Shown here piece after piece: positions 16,052 through 24,541 of a stretch of 24,541 nt of DNA. The position numbers and the translations under genes were made by a program. Source of the DNA: a virus; IMG/VR virus record IMGVR_UViG_3300025120_000520, positions 1 through 24,541 of that record. One strand, written 5' to 3'. Every line of letters starts with the position of its first letter. Within the stretch, counting starts at the first letter, position 1. The notes below the pieces were generated by a model, which was not told the DNA's origin, made no database searches, and was given only the letters and a program-made list of their open reading frames with translations.

Positions 16052-16080
16052 AATCTAGTAGTGTTTAGTAAGCTAGTCAA
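16052..16080 (-). promoter_or_regulatory. Candidate sigma70 promoter for the SSB/primase unit
   Basis: On the - strand TTGACT (complement of 16075-16080; 5 of 6 matches to consensus) is followed after 17 bases by TAGATT (complement of 16052-16057; 4 of 6). It lies in the 49-base gap between the helicase stop and the 133-residue gene, with the -35 box overlapping the helicase stop. The transcript would start about 20-25 bases before the ATG. Confidence 0.45.
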
Positions 16081-17608
16081 GTAGTTCTTTGTATAAATCT
16101 ATCATTTTTGTGTGTACGTCTATTCTGTTATCAAGTAATGAGTAAACACGCTTTTCTACAGCAGAACCTTGTAGTTGTACAACAGTACATGGGTGCTTCT
16201 GCCCTGACCTGTGCACCCTAGCGTTTGCCTGTGCATAGATTTCTAAGGAAGGTGTCGGCCCCCACCACACCACAGTATTAGCTGCGGTTAATGTAACACC
16301 GTGCGCTGCCGATTGCGGCTGTATAACTAACACGCGTGGATTATCTGTTGTTTGGAAGCGTTTAAATATATCTGTACGTTGAGACACAGGCACATCGCCC
16401 CGTATCACGGCTGTGTTGATCCCGTCTTTGCGTAGCTTATCCACCAAAATATCTATGGTGTGTTTGAATGGCACAAAGATCAATACTTTCTGACTGCTCT
16501 CGTCTATGACTTCACGTAAAACTTTGTATCTGTGCTTGATGTCAAACTCTAAGGTGTCACCTTCGTCTGTGTACACAGCACCTGCGGATATTTGTAATAG
16601 CTTGTTCATAATGACTGCCGCGTTCACAGCGGTAACTTCGTCATCACCAACCTTCATAACCAGTTTCTTTTTTAGCGTGTCGTAGTATTTTTGCTGCTGA
16701 CGTGTAAGCTCTACTTTTCGCTTAACGTATGTCATATCAGGCAGGTCAAGACATTCTTCTTTGGTAAACCGTATCGCAGGTTGTAACACCCTATACACAA
16801 GGTCTGTCGCTTCGGGTCTTACTATCCACCTAAACTGTGTAATCTTTGTCATAACCATGTCACGGAACGAACCAAAGAAACGTGGCACTGCATTTGTGTT
16901 AACTAACTTAGCCAAACCATACGCATCCAACGGTGACTGCGCGGCAGGTGTACCCGTCATCATCCATAACCACGTGTTATCATTGACGAGTTTGTTGAGT
17001 ATCTTCCACCGTTTAGACTGCGCGTTCTTGTAGTGCGTAGCTTCGTCAACTACTATCAGATCGAATCCACCTTTCGCTATCTCTTCGGACACAATTTCTA
17101 CACCGTCATAGTTTATTACCACAAAGTCTGCGCCTTGCTCTATGATCTGTTTGCGTTTATTTGATGCGCCATGAGCTATATCCACGCTACGGTGTGGAGC
17201 AAAGGTAAACAGGTCTTCACGCCATGCGCTATCCATAATAGACAAAGGACATATAACGAGCACACGTTTTATTTTACCTTGCTTCATCAGGTAGTCCGCA
17301 GCCCAGATAGCACTGGCTGTTTTGCCAGTACCTTGTTCATTAAAACAAAATGCTTTGCGGTTCATAGTCAGAAATGCAGCGGTCTTTTTTTGGTGCGAAA
17401 AGGGTGCATGTTTACCTGTCCACTTGTACTGTGTTTGAATGGGTGACGGTGCTTTGATGTTTAAGTTTCTAAGCGTGTGTATTTCGTCAACACCCCAGTT
17501 TACCAACACCTCGTTTTTACGTACAGCTTGGCTTTTAGGAATGACTTCAGTGACACGTTTTGGATTGCGTAGCTTTAGCAGCAACGCCTTACCGTCGATG
17601 ATCTTCAT
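16073..17608 (-). CDS. SNF2-type (superfamily 2) DNA helicase/translocase
   Basis: 511 residues, the usual size of phage SNF2-like helicases. Motifs in order: motif I EQGTGKT (91-97), Ia ICPLSI (119-124), motif II DEAT (188-191), motif III MTGTP (217-221), then in the second RecA-like domain VLIFVPFKHT (375-384), motif V SAAHGVTLTAANTVVWWG (433-450) and motif VI QANARVHRSGQ (460-470). The VHRSGQ form is typical of SNF2 enzymes. It hydrolyses ATP to move on duplex DNA, probably in replication restart, recombination or displacement of proteins. The ATG follows AAGGAG, itself directly preceded by the palindrome at 17620-17638. Confidence 0.93.
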   Translation of the reverse strand: MKIIDGKALLLKLRNPKRVTEVIPKSQAVRKNEVLVNWGVDEIHTLRNLNIKAPSPIQTQYKWTGKHAPFSHQKKTAAFLTMNRKAFCFNEQGTGKTASAIWAADYLMKQGKIKRVLVICPLSIMDSAWREDLFTFAPHRSVDIAHGASNKRKQIIEQGADFVVINYDGVEIVSEEIAKGGFDLIVVDEATHYKNAQSKRWKILNKLVNDNTWLWMMTGTPAAQSPLDAYGLAKLVNTNAVPRFFGSFRDMVMTKITQFRWIVRPEATDLVYRVLQPAIRFTKEECLDLPDMTYVKRKVELTRQQQKYYDTLKKKLVMKVGDDEVTAVNAAVIMNKLLQISAGAVYTDEGDTLEFDIKHRYKVLREVIDESSQKVLIFVPFKHTIDILVDKLRKDGINTAVIRGDVPVSQRTDIFKRFQTTDNPRVLVIQPQSAAHGVTLTAANTVVWWGPTPSLEIYAQANARVHRSGQKHPCTVVQLQGSAVEKRVYSLLDNRIDVHTKMIDLYKELLD

Positions 17609-17619
17609 GTAGTTCTCCT

Positions 17620-17638
17620 TTTAGGGAACTTCCCTAAA
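17620..17638 (-). promoter_or_regulatory. Palindromic early-gene operator-like site, copy 1
   Basis: A perfect inverted repeat, TTTAGGGAA (17620-17628), one central base, TTCCCTAAA (17630-17638), lies 11 bases upstream of the helicase ATG and directly beside its AAGGAG. The same element precedes the VRR-NUC and 362-residue genes. It could be the binding site of a dimeric regulator. In RNA it could fold as a 7-pair stem with a 5-base loop next to the ribosome binding site. Confidence 0.65.
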
Positions 17639-20848: not shown

Positions 20849-21175
20849 TTAGTTCTCCTTGGTTTCTTCTCTAGGAAGGTTATAGCGAGATTTAATTTGT
20901 ATTACGGACTTGTCCGAAACTTGCAGCACCTCGCTTATGTTTTGAATAGACATATTTAGTTTTAGCATACGGTCTACCATTTTTGCTTTTTCGGTAAGCT
21001 CTAATTTAGGGCGTCCACCTTTTTCACCATAGGATGCGCCCTTCCTACCGTTTCTAGCGTTGTAGCTACCCGTCATTTCACGCAACTTGGGGTTAGCGGC
21101 CATATCTTTTTTTGTTTGCTGCTCCCAACATTGTTTGTATAGCTCTTCGTAGCCCACGCGTTCACGTTCATTCAT
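20849..21175 (-). CDS. Putative DNA-binding protein, C-terminal helix-turn-helix
   Basis: 108 residues. The ATG overlaps the end of the 115-residue gene by 8 bases, with AAGGGTG upstream. The first 35 residues are charged and helical. A Gly/Arg/Lys-rich linker follows (NARNGRKGASYGEKGGRPKL, 39-58). Residues 63-98 form a likely helix-turn-helix (MVDRMLKLNMSIQNISEVLQVSDKSVIQIKSRY) of the sigma-region-4 or resolvase style. The GGRPK segment could sit in the minor groove, as in AT-hook-like linkers. It may be a phage transcription regulator and is a candidate to recognise the early palindromes. Its stop abuts the next gene (20848), with the ribosome binding site of that gene inside its 3' end. 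Confidence 0.8.
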   Translation of the reverse strand: MNERERVGYEELYKQCWEQQTKKDMAANPKLREMTGSYNARNGRKGASYGEKGGRPKLELTEKAKMVDRMLKLNMSIQNISEVLQVSDKSVIQIKSRYNLPREETKEN

Positions 21176-21515
21176 AGTGTGTCACCCTTATAGCTAAGAA
21201 ATACCTAAAGCCACCAAGGTCATCACTGTGGGGTAAAAACGTCACTATATCCCCTGCCTTGGCTTTGGCTTTTGTTGTAAGCCCCATAATTGATAAGAGT
21301 TTATCGCCCCGTGGACGTCTATACATGCGTAACGCTGACGGTGTAATATTTTCGTCTTTGTCTATAAGCAACGCTTTAAACACGCAGCGTTCACCGTTAT
21401 TAATGTCTGTGTAGTTAACAGGTAGGTGTTCTTTTGCAAACGCGACTACCGATTTATTTGCATCCATAATGCTCTTGTTCAGCATACGTTGCGTTACCTT
21501 TATCTTTGCTTCCAT
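21168..21515 (-). CDS. Unrecognised phage protein (115 residues)
   Basis: The ATG follows AAGGAGAAC at good spacing, directly after the stop of the 59-residue gene. The N-terminal 28 residues look helical (MLNKSIMDANKSVVAFAKEH). The rest appears to be mixed beta: GERCVFKALLIDKDENI, RMYRRPRGDKLLSIMGL, then KAKAKAGDIVTFLPHSDDLGGFRYFLAIRVTHYE. The GDIVTF ... YFLAIRV pattern suggests a small beta-barrel. I do not recognise a family or see catalytic residues. Co-transcription with regulators and polymerase suggests an early role. Confidence 0.8.
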   Translation of the reverse strand: MEAKIKVTQRMLNKSIMDANKSVVAFAKEHLPVNYTDINNGERCVFKALLIDKDENITPSALRMYRRPRGDKLLSIMGLTTKAKAKAGDIVTFLPHSDDLGGFRYFLAIRVTHYE

Positions 21516-21877: not shown

Positions 21878-22210
21878 TCACAGCTTGGCAACTACGTTGG
21901 ATAAATTCACCGTCTGATGTATCCTATGCCCACCAGCAACCAACTTATGCACATCGTGCATGTTGGCCTCATTAATAACCAAGTCAAACCCACCTGCGGT
22001 TCGTATGTCGTTCAAGTTTTTTTCCTGCAAAGGCGTGGGCTTGTTGATACCAGCTTTGCACTCAAACCCAAAAAACATACCCTTGTAACATCCTACAATG
22101 TCAGGCACGCCACTCTTACCGTATCCGCCAGTGGCAGGGTAAAAGTAATACGCGCCCATAGCTTTAAGATGCTTGACCACGGTCTTTTTAACTTTAGCTT
22201 CGGGTGTCAT
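21878..22210 (-). CDS. VRR-NUC domain nuclease
   Basis: 110 residues, a complete stand-alone VRR-NUC domain. The start MTPEAKVKKTVVKHLKAMGAY is the usual helix. The catalytic core is SGVPDIVGCYKGMFFGFECK (33-52): the PD (36-37) and ExK (E50, K52) residues of the PD-(D/E)XK fold. Then KPTPLQEKNLNDIRTAGG (57-74) provides the conserved Q and closing helix. Such phage proteins are thought to act as structure-specific nucleases, for example at Holliday junctions or forks. The ATG follows GGAGAAC, which in turn follows palindrome copy 2. It is the first gene of its sub-operon. Confidence 0.92.
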   Translation of the reverse strand: MTPEAKVKKTVVKHLKAMGAYYFYPATGGYGKSGVPDIVGCYKGMFFGFECKAGINKPTPLQEKNLNDIRTAGGFDLVINEANMHDVHKLVAGGHRIHQTVNLSNVVAKL

Positions 22211-22223
22211 TGTCGTTCTCCAT

Positions 22224-22242
22224 TTTAGGGAAGTTCCCTATT
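22224..22242 (-). promoter_or_regulatory. Palindromic early-gene operator-like site, copy 2
   Basis: TTTAGGGAA, a central base, then TTCCCTATT. The inner 15 bases (TAGGGAA-N-TTCCCTA) form a perfect inverted repeat; only the outer bases differ from copy 1. It lies 14-15 bases upstream of the VRR-NUC ATG, just before GGAGAAC. On the - strand it is preceded by TAAAAT, which could be a -10 box, so a bound regulator would sit at the transcription start. Confidence 0.62.
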
Positions 22243-23425: not shown

Positions 23426-24514
23426 TTACCCTTTCACGGTTTTAGTAAAGTTACATACCCTGTTTATCTTTGTATTGTATTGCGCCACCACGTTCCCTGC
23501 GTTTGGGTCACCTCGCATATGCCACTTATAGTCAGTGTCATTCAGCAGGTAGTAAGCTAGATGCAGGCGTAGTGGGTGATCCTCATTTTTTATTACCTCG
23601 CGTGTTGTTTTCCAGTTATCTACAAATACGCCTAACATACTCCACTGGCCCCAGCGACTTGTAGGCATGTGTTCCTTTAGTTCGTTACGCATACGCTCTT
23701 CATAATCCCTGTCACCTTCGGGCAGTAGAGGGAACATAGTGAACGCCCACTCTTTAAACGTGGCAAGCTCGGCCTTCAGCTTGGCTTTCGCGTCTTTGTT
23801 TACAACCACTCTTGGGGCTTTCGGTATCGGCTTACCACCGTGTGAAAGATATGCGTCGCCAGATGTGATAAAGAATGACAGAGCCGTGCCATCATCACGT
23901 GAACTCCAAGACGTGTTCCATCTGTTAGGGCTATGTGGCACGTCACACGCAGCGACAGTTATACTTTTAGCCAGATAATACTTGCCAGCAGCAGGGCCAC
24001 CACACAATATGTACTGTTTGCCGTTTTCTATGCGAAACGTCAGGTGGGACGGTATGCACCGCTGTAAGAAACTATACCTAGACATGTGAGCGCCTTGCCC
24101 TGTGCCATTACGTATCGTCACTGTCTCCGTACCGTTTTTATGTTTGCGCCACACGATAGGAGCCAGCTTCTCGACCTCGGCTTCAGTCGGTCCTCTGCCG
24201 TACAACGCTGGGTTACGCCGCATATGGTCTGTGACTTTATCTGCTGGAATTGCGGTTTTGACCCCGTTTACCATGGTGTAGAAGTCACCCCAACAATACC
24301 CGAACACATCGTCACCGCTGTAGTACCCATCCATAAGCGCGTAACAGTTGTCGTTGATCTTTTTAATGCGCTCGTATTTGCGCTTGCGATCACCAAGGGG
24401 GCGTATGTCTTGCTCTAACGTATGACACTTTGATACCAGAGGTTTAGTGTTATTGTACCACGAAGCGACTTTATCGAACGTGTCCAGTTGGCGGTTCATG
24501 TATGACATAACCAT
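23426..24514 (-). CDS. Unrecognised early phage protein (362 residues), first early gene in view
   Basis: The first ATG is used because GGAGAAC lies 5 bases upstream; ATGs at codons 3 and 6 are weaker. The N-terminal 60 residues are helical and basic (DIRPLGDRKRKYERIKKINDN). GDDVFGYCWGDFYTMVNG (67-84) is Gly/aromatic-rich, followed by RNPALYGRGPTEAEVEKLAPIVWRKH, then a central part with RYSFLQRCIPSHLTFRIENG and YILCGGPAAGKYYLAKS (168-184). The last third is helical and charged. The GGPAAGK stretch resembles a P-loop but lacks the Ser/Thr. No family is recognised. Its leader carries the truncated third palindrome, so it probably heads an operon expressed early. Confidence 0.82.
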   Translation of the reverse strand: MVMSYMNRQLDTFDKVASWYNNTKPLVSKCHTLEQDIRPLGDRKRKYERIKKINDNCYALMDGYYSGDDVFGYCWGDFYTMVNGVKTAIPADKVTDHMRRNPALYGRGPTEAEVEKLAPIVWRKHKNGTETVTIRNGTGQGAHMSRYSFLQRCIPSHLTFRIENGKQYILCGGPAAGKYYLAKSITVAACDVPHSPNRWNTSWSSRDDGTALSFFITSGDAYLSHGGKPIPKAPRVVVNKDAKAKLKAELATFKEWAFTMFPLLPEGDRDYEERMRNELKEHMPTSRWGQWSMLGVFVDNWKTTREVIKNEDHPLRLHLAYYLLNDTDYKWHMRGDPNAGNVVAQYNTKINRVCNFTKTVKG

Positions 24515-24531: not shown

Positions 24532-24541
24532 TTTAGGGAAG
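24532..24541 (-). promoter_or_regulatory. Palindromic early-gene operator-like site, copy 3 (cut by window edge)
   Basis: TTTAGGGAA plus the central G are present at the right edge; the expected second arm lies outside the window. It is 17 bases upstream of the ATG of the 362-residue gene, with GGAGAAC between, the same order as at copies 1 and 2. Confidence 0.5.

Follow-up and report, generated by a model that had tools for sequence, protein, structure and literature searches.

Palindrome Copies at the Heads of Early Genes

The stretch analyzed, referred to below as the window, comprises positions 1 to 24,541 (24,541 nucleotides) of the virus record IMGVR_UViG_3300025120_000520, which is itself a partial virus contig. 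Three genes on its minus strand, coding for an SNF2-type helicase, a VRR-NUC-like endonuclease and a 362-residue protein, have a copy of the same palindrome at their heads (Table 1). The original prediction described a perfect palindrome in front of the helicase gene, a perfect 15-bp core (22226–22240) in the second copy and a restart of the element at 24532. All of these were present as described, the third copy being cut by the window edge after the start of TTCCCTAAA. The distances to the ATG (11, 13–15 and 17 bases) and the GGAGAAC that comes next were also confirmed. A scan of the window allowing up to three mismatches gave two full copies (17620 and 22224), with 0.01 expected in shuffled sequences; the palindrome is real and far above chance expectation. 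In relatives the junction of the 17620 copy holds palindromes of other sequence, and the junction of the 22224 copy is likewise occupied.

Table 1. Positions of the palindrome copies, associated genes and other features of the window and related loci.
Feature	Position	Strand	Remarks
Perfect 19-bp palindrome TTTAGGGAACTTCCCTAAA (TTTAGGGAA-C-TTCCCTAAA)	window 17620–17638	.	flanked by 93-aa gene and SNF2-type helicase gene
Palindrome copy	window 22224–22242	.	junction of 83-aa gene and VRR-NUC gene
Arm of third copy, truncated	window 24532–24541	.	full form ATTAGGGAACTTCCCTAAA in overlapping contigs
SNF2-type helicase gene	window 16073–17608	-	17620 copy at its head
VRR-NUC-like endonuclease gene	window 21878–22210	-	22224 copy at its head
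362-aa gene	window 23426–24514	-	function unknown; 24532 copy at its head
115-aa early gene	window 21168–21515
CLP gene (g186)	L200:3696–4256		in 3300001460_000248 (G002)
CLP genes of types A, B and G	L286:5001–5540; L314:5001–5579; L319:300–830
GATACCAG places	L200:4680–4940; L201:220–480; L206:12234–12479		and other places
TGTTACAATGTTGCA-kind repeats	L200:4980–5200; L201:500–720; L206:11970–12190
First early gene	L200:5386–5619		and relatives
Modular early protein	L200:9651–10427; L215:12889–13509
EVB41_076, Rhizobium phage RHph_TM3_14A	L280:18384–21467		annotated putative integrase

The Complete Early Region

Two contigs, 3300001460_000248 (G002) and 3300001472_000209 (G001), showed 99.6% and 99.3% identity to the window across the overlap and are further assemblies of the same phage. 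Both run beyond the window end, and the missing arm of the third copy was found there, as anticipated in the original prediction, completing it as ATTAGGGAACTTCCCTAAA. In G002 ten exact TAGGGAANTTCCCTA copies were located within 21.9 kb. Copies at gene heads precede a small zinc-ribbon-like gene, a DUF3150-like gene and the genes for a MoxR-type ATPase, a DUF2201 metallopeptidase/VWA protein, the 362-residue protein, VRR-NUC and the SNF2-type helicase; elsewhere, one copy separates the divergently oriented terS from a 186-aa gene, and two, about 100 bp apart, lie in a non-coding stretch. The placement of the sites upstream of early genes thus stands for the three window copies and not for the whole phage, in which three copies are in or beside this non-coding control region. 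The proposed division of the early block into three units is too coarse, because about ten sites exist.

Many copies are wedged between the preceding stop codon and the following Shine-Dalgarno sequence, and in 80 of 149 copies collected across the phage family the start codon is 10–34 nt downstream. In several genomes strong TTGACA-17-TATATT-like promoters precede the first gene-head copies by about 40–85 bp; most internal copies have no strong promoter nearby. In this family the copies occur only on the early side, at gene junctions.

Several other features of the early region were recorded. The first early gene codes for a small CxxC...CxxC zinc-ribbon-like protein which recalls TraR/DksA zinc fingers and had no Pfam match above threshold. 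The control region contains TGTTACAATGTTGCA repeats (TGTTCCAATGTTCCA in relatives) in opposite orientation on either side of an AT-rich stretch, an arrangement resembling a replication origin; the repeat sequence also varies among genomes. In palindrome types A, B, C and G, as well as in the genome G007, the motif GATACCAG is enriched about tenfold (6–8 copies in several stretches versus 0.3–0.7 expected). It occurs in the window too, and next to the control-region palindromes it takes the form GATACCAGTA...GCG. A modular early protein combines a C-terminal membrane-spanning tail, common to its versions, with an N-terminal DNA-binding domain that is exchangeable and either Myb-like or AlpA/MerR-like.

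Palindrome Types in Related Phages

Relatives 73–90% identical around the helicase gene have a palindrome of another sequence at the helicase junction, or none. The type TTCGGGCA-NN-TGCCCGAA is present in ten copies each in G003 and G015, TTTAGGGA-NN-TCCCTAAA in at least ten copies in G004, GTTAGTG-NNN-CACTAAC in nine copies in G027, and GTTAGGGA-NN-TCCCTAAC in eight copies in G030; CTAGGGAA sites were found in G010 and GTTAGGGAA sites in G011. G007 was at one point taken as palindrome-free from a stretch holding two sites only; it has a type of its own, GTTATAACACGTGTTATAAC, at six sites. Each multi-copy genome examined contains a single type; types are mutually exclusive, and in shuffled sequences of the relatives the best recurrence was one or two. 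The occupied junctions are homologous across all types, as seen when relatives were checked for palindromes at these places: the palindromes are there, and their sequence is concertedly different.

On the helicase tree the type label requires 15 changes (minimum possible 8; shuffled mean 37.5), and therefore the types interleave. The most striking pair, L076 (type A) and L135 (type B), short contigs with one visible site each, is 97.2% identical over 3,977 bp. Nine of the 110 differences fall inside the 20-bp palindrome and are mirrored between its arms. The bases beside the palindrome are also somewhat more divergent, and therefore recombination may have imported the other type. Switches of type occur among closely related phages. 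At least seven specificities are represented. Since every multi-site genome is uniform in type, selection by one trans-acting factor is implied, and the earlier claim of a shared element under one regulator gains support from this uniformity and from the concerted difference at the same junctions in relatives.

Candidate Binding Proteins

None of the helix-turn-helix genes of 80, 108 and 151 residues, proposed earlier as coding for the binder, tracks the palindrome type, and the gene that does so lies outside the window. The recognition helix of the 80-residue protein is near-identical in all types; the 151-residue DUF6378 protein does not follow type; the 108-residue protein is patchy and does not follow type. 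An 83-residue protein has some type-associated columns, yet its gene adjoins a palindrome, and the G010 stretch yielded no homologue. The variable Myb-like/AlpA-like membrane-tailed proteins were unseen in type G and showed no correspondence to type. The 115-residue gene had seemed specific to type A; it was set aside on finding 40 relatives in other phages, in which a recurrent palindrome of this kind was not observed. Identity of the 115-residue product to some 40 loci of other phages is 39–61%.

The gene that tracks type codes for a protein of about 180 residues, termed here the control-locus protein (CLP). This gene has the divergent terminase genes on one side and the early control region on the other. 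Its product in the phage of the window belongs to the g186 family (179–186 aa). Family scans gave 24 g186 carriers, all 24 with TTTAGGGA half-sites, 10 f61 carriers, all 10 with TTCGGGCA half-sites, and 6 f89 carriers, all 6 with GTTAGTG half-sites. CLP subfamily and palindrome type thus agree in 40 of 40 loci (three subfamilies, three half-sites); types D, E, F (G030) and H do not enter this comparison. In 38 of the 40 carriers the CLP gene is preceded, at 38–179 nt, by a palindrome of matching type; of the two recorded without one, the L291 locus starts too near the gene to judge, and in L320 none was seen.

Since the carriers are in part near-copies or close relatives, the 40/40 figure overstates their independence, and the argument is carried by three conflicts with the phage backbone. 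In L300 the adjacent TerL nests in the f61/B clade (support 99), yet the CLP of this locus is of g186 type and its palindrome of type A. In the MoxR tree f61/B phages are nested among g186/C phages. G003 has a MoxR near types C and A, but type B sites and an f61-type C-terminus. By these conflicts, CLP and palindrome switch together against the phage backbone.

The g186 and f61 subfamilies are only about 15% identical, and their common descent is weakly supported. The more distant genomes G010, G011 and G007, with their further palindrome types, fit the pattern: each has a divergent protein at the CLP locus, and a core AIV.GF...QQQ.G...D...L..R is weakly common to several of the divergent versions. 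Comparison of CLP with Pfam, PHROGs and the PDB gave no convincing match and no recognizable DNA-binding domain, nor was a convincing relative found among annotated phages; the stretch of Pseudomonas phage Rollin examined contains no recurrent palindrome. The model of g186-type CLP is mostly helical and of moderate confidence (pLDDT 81, pTM 0.59). Fold searches with it yielded no clear match: Foldseek reached an E of 1.4 at best, and VIA-align a Z of 6.0, an ambiguous value for a helical model. The model of the f61-type protein was unusable (pLDDT 47). It is because of the co-variation of CLP and palindrome, and not because of fold, that we infer direct binding of CLP to the palindrome.

Interpretation of the Palindrome Array

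The reading that best accommodates these data, with a probability of about 0.6, is that the palindromes serve as operators for a single sequence-specific DNA-binding regulator encoded by the phage, most likely CLP. It is unlikely, though deserving of some weight, that the sites are DNA operators bound by a host protein or another phage protein and that CLP merely travels with the control region. The absence of a recognized DNA-binding fold in CLP would suit such a binder, as would the position of the several-site control region: it adjoins the CLP gene, and therefore one recombination event could move both. Against it, sites far from CLP, at the junctions of the 362-residue gene, VRR-NUC and helicase, switch as well, and no other gene family examined tracks type, the 115-residue candidate included. 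A host regulon was not apparent either: the type A and B palindromes gave a single match each in 398 Pseudomonadota genomes, a search that a narrow host group could escape. The host search itself returned only binned contigs of 57–64% identity in one Rhodobacteraceae, one Actinomycetota and one betaproteobacterial MAG.

A role in replication, genome organization or segregation instead of transcription, with an origin or nucleoid protein, possibly CLP, as the binder, appears improbable. Two or three copies flank the non-coding region with the TGTTACAATGTTGCA-like repeats and the origin-like AT-rich stretch, which favors such a role. So does a cultured distant relative, Rhizobium phage RHph_TM3_14A (MN988472.1; L280, L282 and L283), which has the same MoxR, metallopeptidase, PolA, exonuclease, VRR-NUC, SNF2 and DUF927 genes: its 18 copies of GTTACC-N5/6-GGTAAC are spread over early and late genes, several of them within coding sequence. 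In the present phages, by contrast, copies are confined to the early side, at gene junctions and near start codons. RHph_TM3_14A could serve as a laboratory model for such palindrome arrays. The annotation of its EVB41_076 product as a putative integrase looks wrong, because it can be aligned over most of its length to the window's early protein containing DUF927.

The original prediction had also offered a shared RNA hairpin acting on ribosome access. An RNA element governing ribosome access or mRNA ends could form a stem of 6–8 bp beside the Shine-Dalgarno sequence, and the start codon is often 10–20 nt away. This alternative is nevertheless very improbable. Among 149 distinct copies, 17 arm pairs depart from the dyad, of which none is compensated, three are G-U, five A-C and nine other; the copy search tolerated two mismatches, and therefore a single compensated pair was detectable. 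Neither compensatory changes nor a preference for G-U was found in this set. Two copies sit between a terminator and the early promoter, upstream of the latter, and some copies are probably untranscribed. At the DUF3150-like gene, the type-G copies fall within the coding sequence, a few codons past the start codon. In four predicted RNA folds the Shine-Dalgarno sequence was unpaired throughout, and fold energies were unremarkable in three of the four. Because of the lack of compensation and of G-U preference, the in-gene and probably untranscribed copies and the free Shine-Dalgarno sequence, a dyad-symmetric DNA site bound by a dimer accounts for the palindrome better than an RNA hairpin. A second hairpin, CGCGCC..GGCGTTGCG, is found between the palindrome and the Shine-Dalgarno sequence upstream of the helicase gene in many type-G phages (L156, L166, L167, L171, L173 and L180); its sequence changes with compensating changes, unlike that of the palindrome.

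That the copies represent a mobile or gene-converted REP-like repeat devoid of any regulatory role is scarcely credible, for all that they are multi-copy, palindromic and mostly intergenic: their flanks differ, the palindrome alone being in common, and homologous junctions are occupied in all types despite the changed sequence, so that the sites did not move.

Returning to CLP as regulator, a CLP dimer would, with fair confidence, occupy the palindrome. It may control its own gene through the palindrome in front of it, and may block or modulate transcription at the early-operon junctions. With less confidence, CLP bound at gene heads, downstream of promoters and within operons, would hinder elongation, and expression of the early genes and of CLP itself would be reduced. 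The copies located about 40–85 bp downstream of strong promoters would act in the same way on the first transcripts, and early genes would go down as CLP accumulates. Because internal copies mostly have no strong promoter to themselves and lie near the start codon, a roadblock of the stoperator kind seems likelier than classical promoter occlusion.

In temperate phages, where operator arrays with many sites are familiar, genome-specific types reflect immunity. The same operator logic would here belong to uncultivated marine phages for which a search confined to PF00589 (integrase) and HTH_3, across 18 mostly incomplete contigs, gave no sign of lysogeny genes. This raises the question of what selects type switching in a lytic cycle. 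Each type offers a testable protein–site pair, and the palindrome types provide a way to read possible interaction groups out of metagenomes. A bolder reading, tentative and rather doubtful, is that CLP represents a new class of phage regulator with no known relatives, acting at palindromic operators genome-wide and in an immunity-like manner in phages without lysogeny. If so, specificity types would be swapped as a module, a resident phage would silence a co-infecting phage of the same type and not of other types, and types would turn over rapidly among otherwise near-identical marine phages.

Comparison with Known Systems

In the temperate phage phiC31, whose repressor proteins are known, conserved inverted repeats are bound by the repressor; these palindromic sites recur between genes in the early portion of its genome. 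The likeness to the present array lies in this repetition of palindromic sites in early intergenic regions.

The extended start-associated sequences (ESAS) of Cluster K mycobacteriophages are inverted repeats just upstream of gene starts, at non-structural genes only; they are conserved with the gene family, their consensus differs by subcluster, RNA pairing is unsupported, and the binder is not named in that paper (PMC3203893). They consist of paired imperfect 17-bp repeats with a 4–13 bp spacer, tied to a 13-bp SAS with the ribosome-binding site (PMC3203893). The location of the sites at the starts of non-structural genes and a consensus specific to a phage subgroup are shared with the present palindromes, which differ in being compact dyads of 17–20 bp with 0–3 central bases. 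No SAS (GGGATAGGAGCCC) was seen here, the downstream motif being GGAGAAC only, and a co-switching candidate protein was found.

Stoperators of Cluster A mycobacteriophages (L5 type) are scattered in many copies through the short gaps between early genes, with one motif per genome that varies with the regulator among relatives (PMC9283540, PMC6550527). They are 13-bp, asymmetric, monomer-bound sites, more than 20 per genome and oriented with transcription, in temperate phages where they serve lysogenic immunity, and their repressor has an N-terminal HTH and a C-terminal stoperator domain (PMC9283540, PMC6550527). Site motif and regulator co-vary here as well, in all 40 loci and with co-switches against the backbone. 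The sites in the present phages, in contrast, are dyad-symmetric, 15–19 bp long and ten in number, and CLP, which matched nothing in Pfam or PHROGs and had no clear structural counterpart, is not recognizably related to the stoperator repressor.

The SPBRE of phage SPbeta, a repeated intergenic element, was recognized in sequence well before the discovery of its unexpected binder, MrpR, a protein with a tyrosine-recombinase-like fold which silences the prophage (PMC10516654). The 18 contigs contained no match to PF00589. Of known systems, ESAS, stoperators and SPBRE come closest: the palindrome array would function like all three, but it lacks defining features of ESAS and stoperators, and no relation to SPBRE was found.
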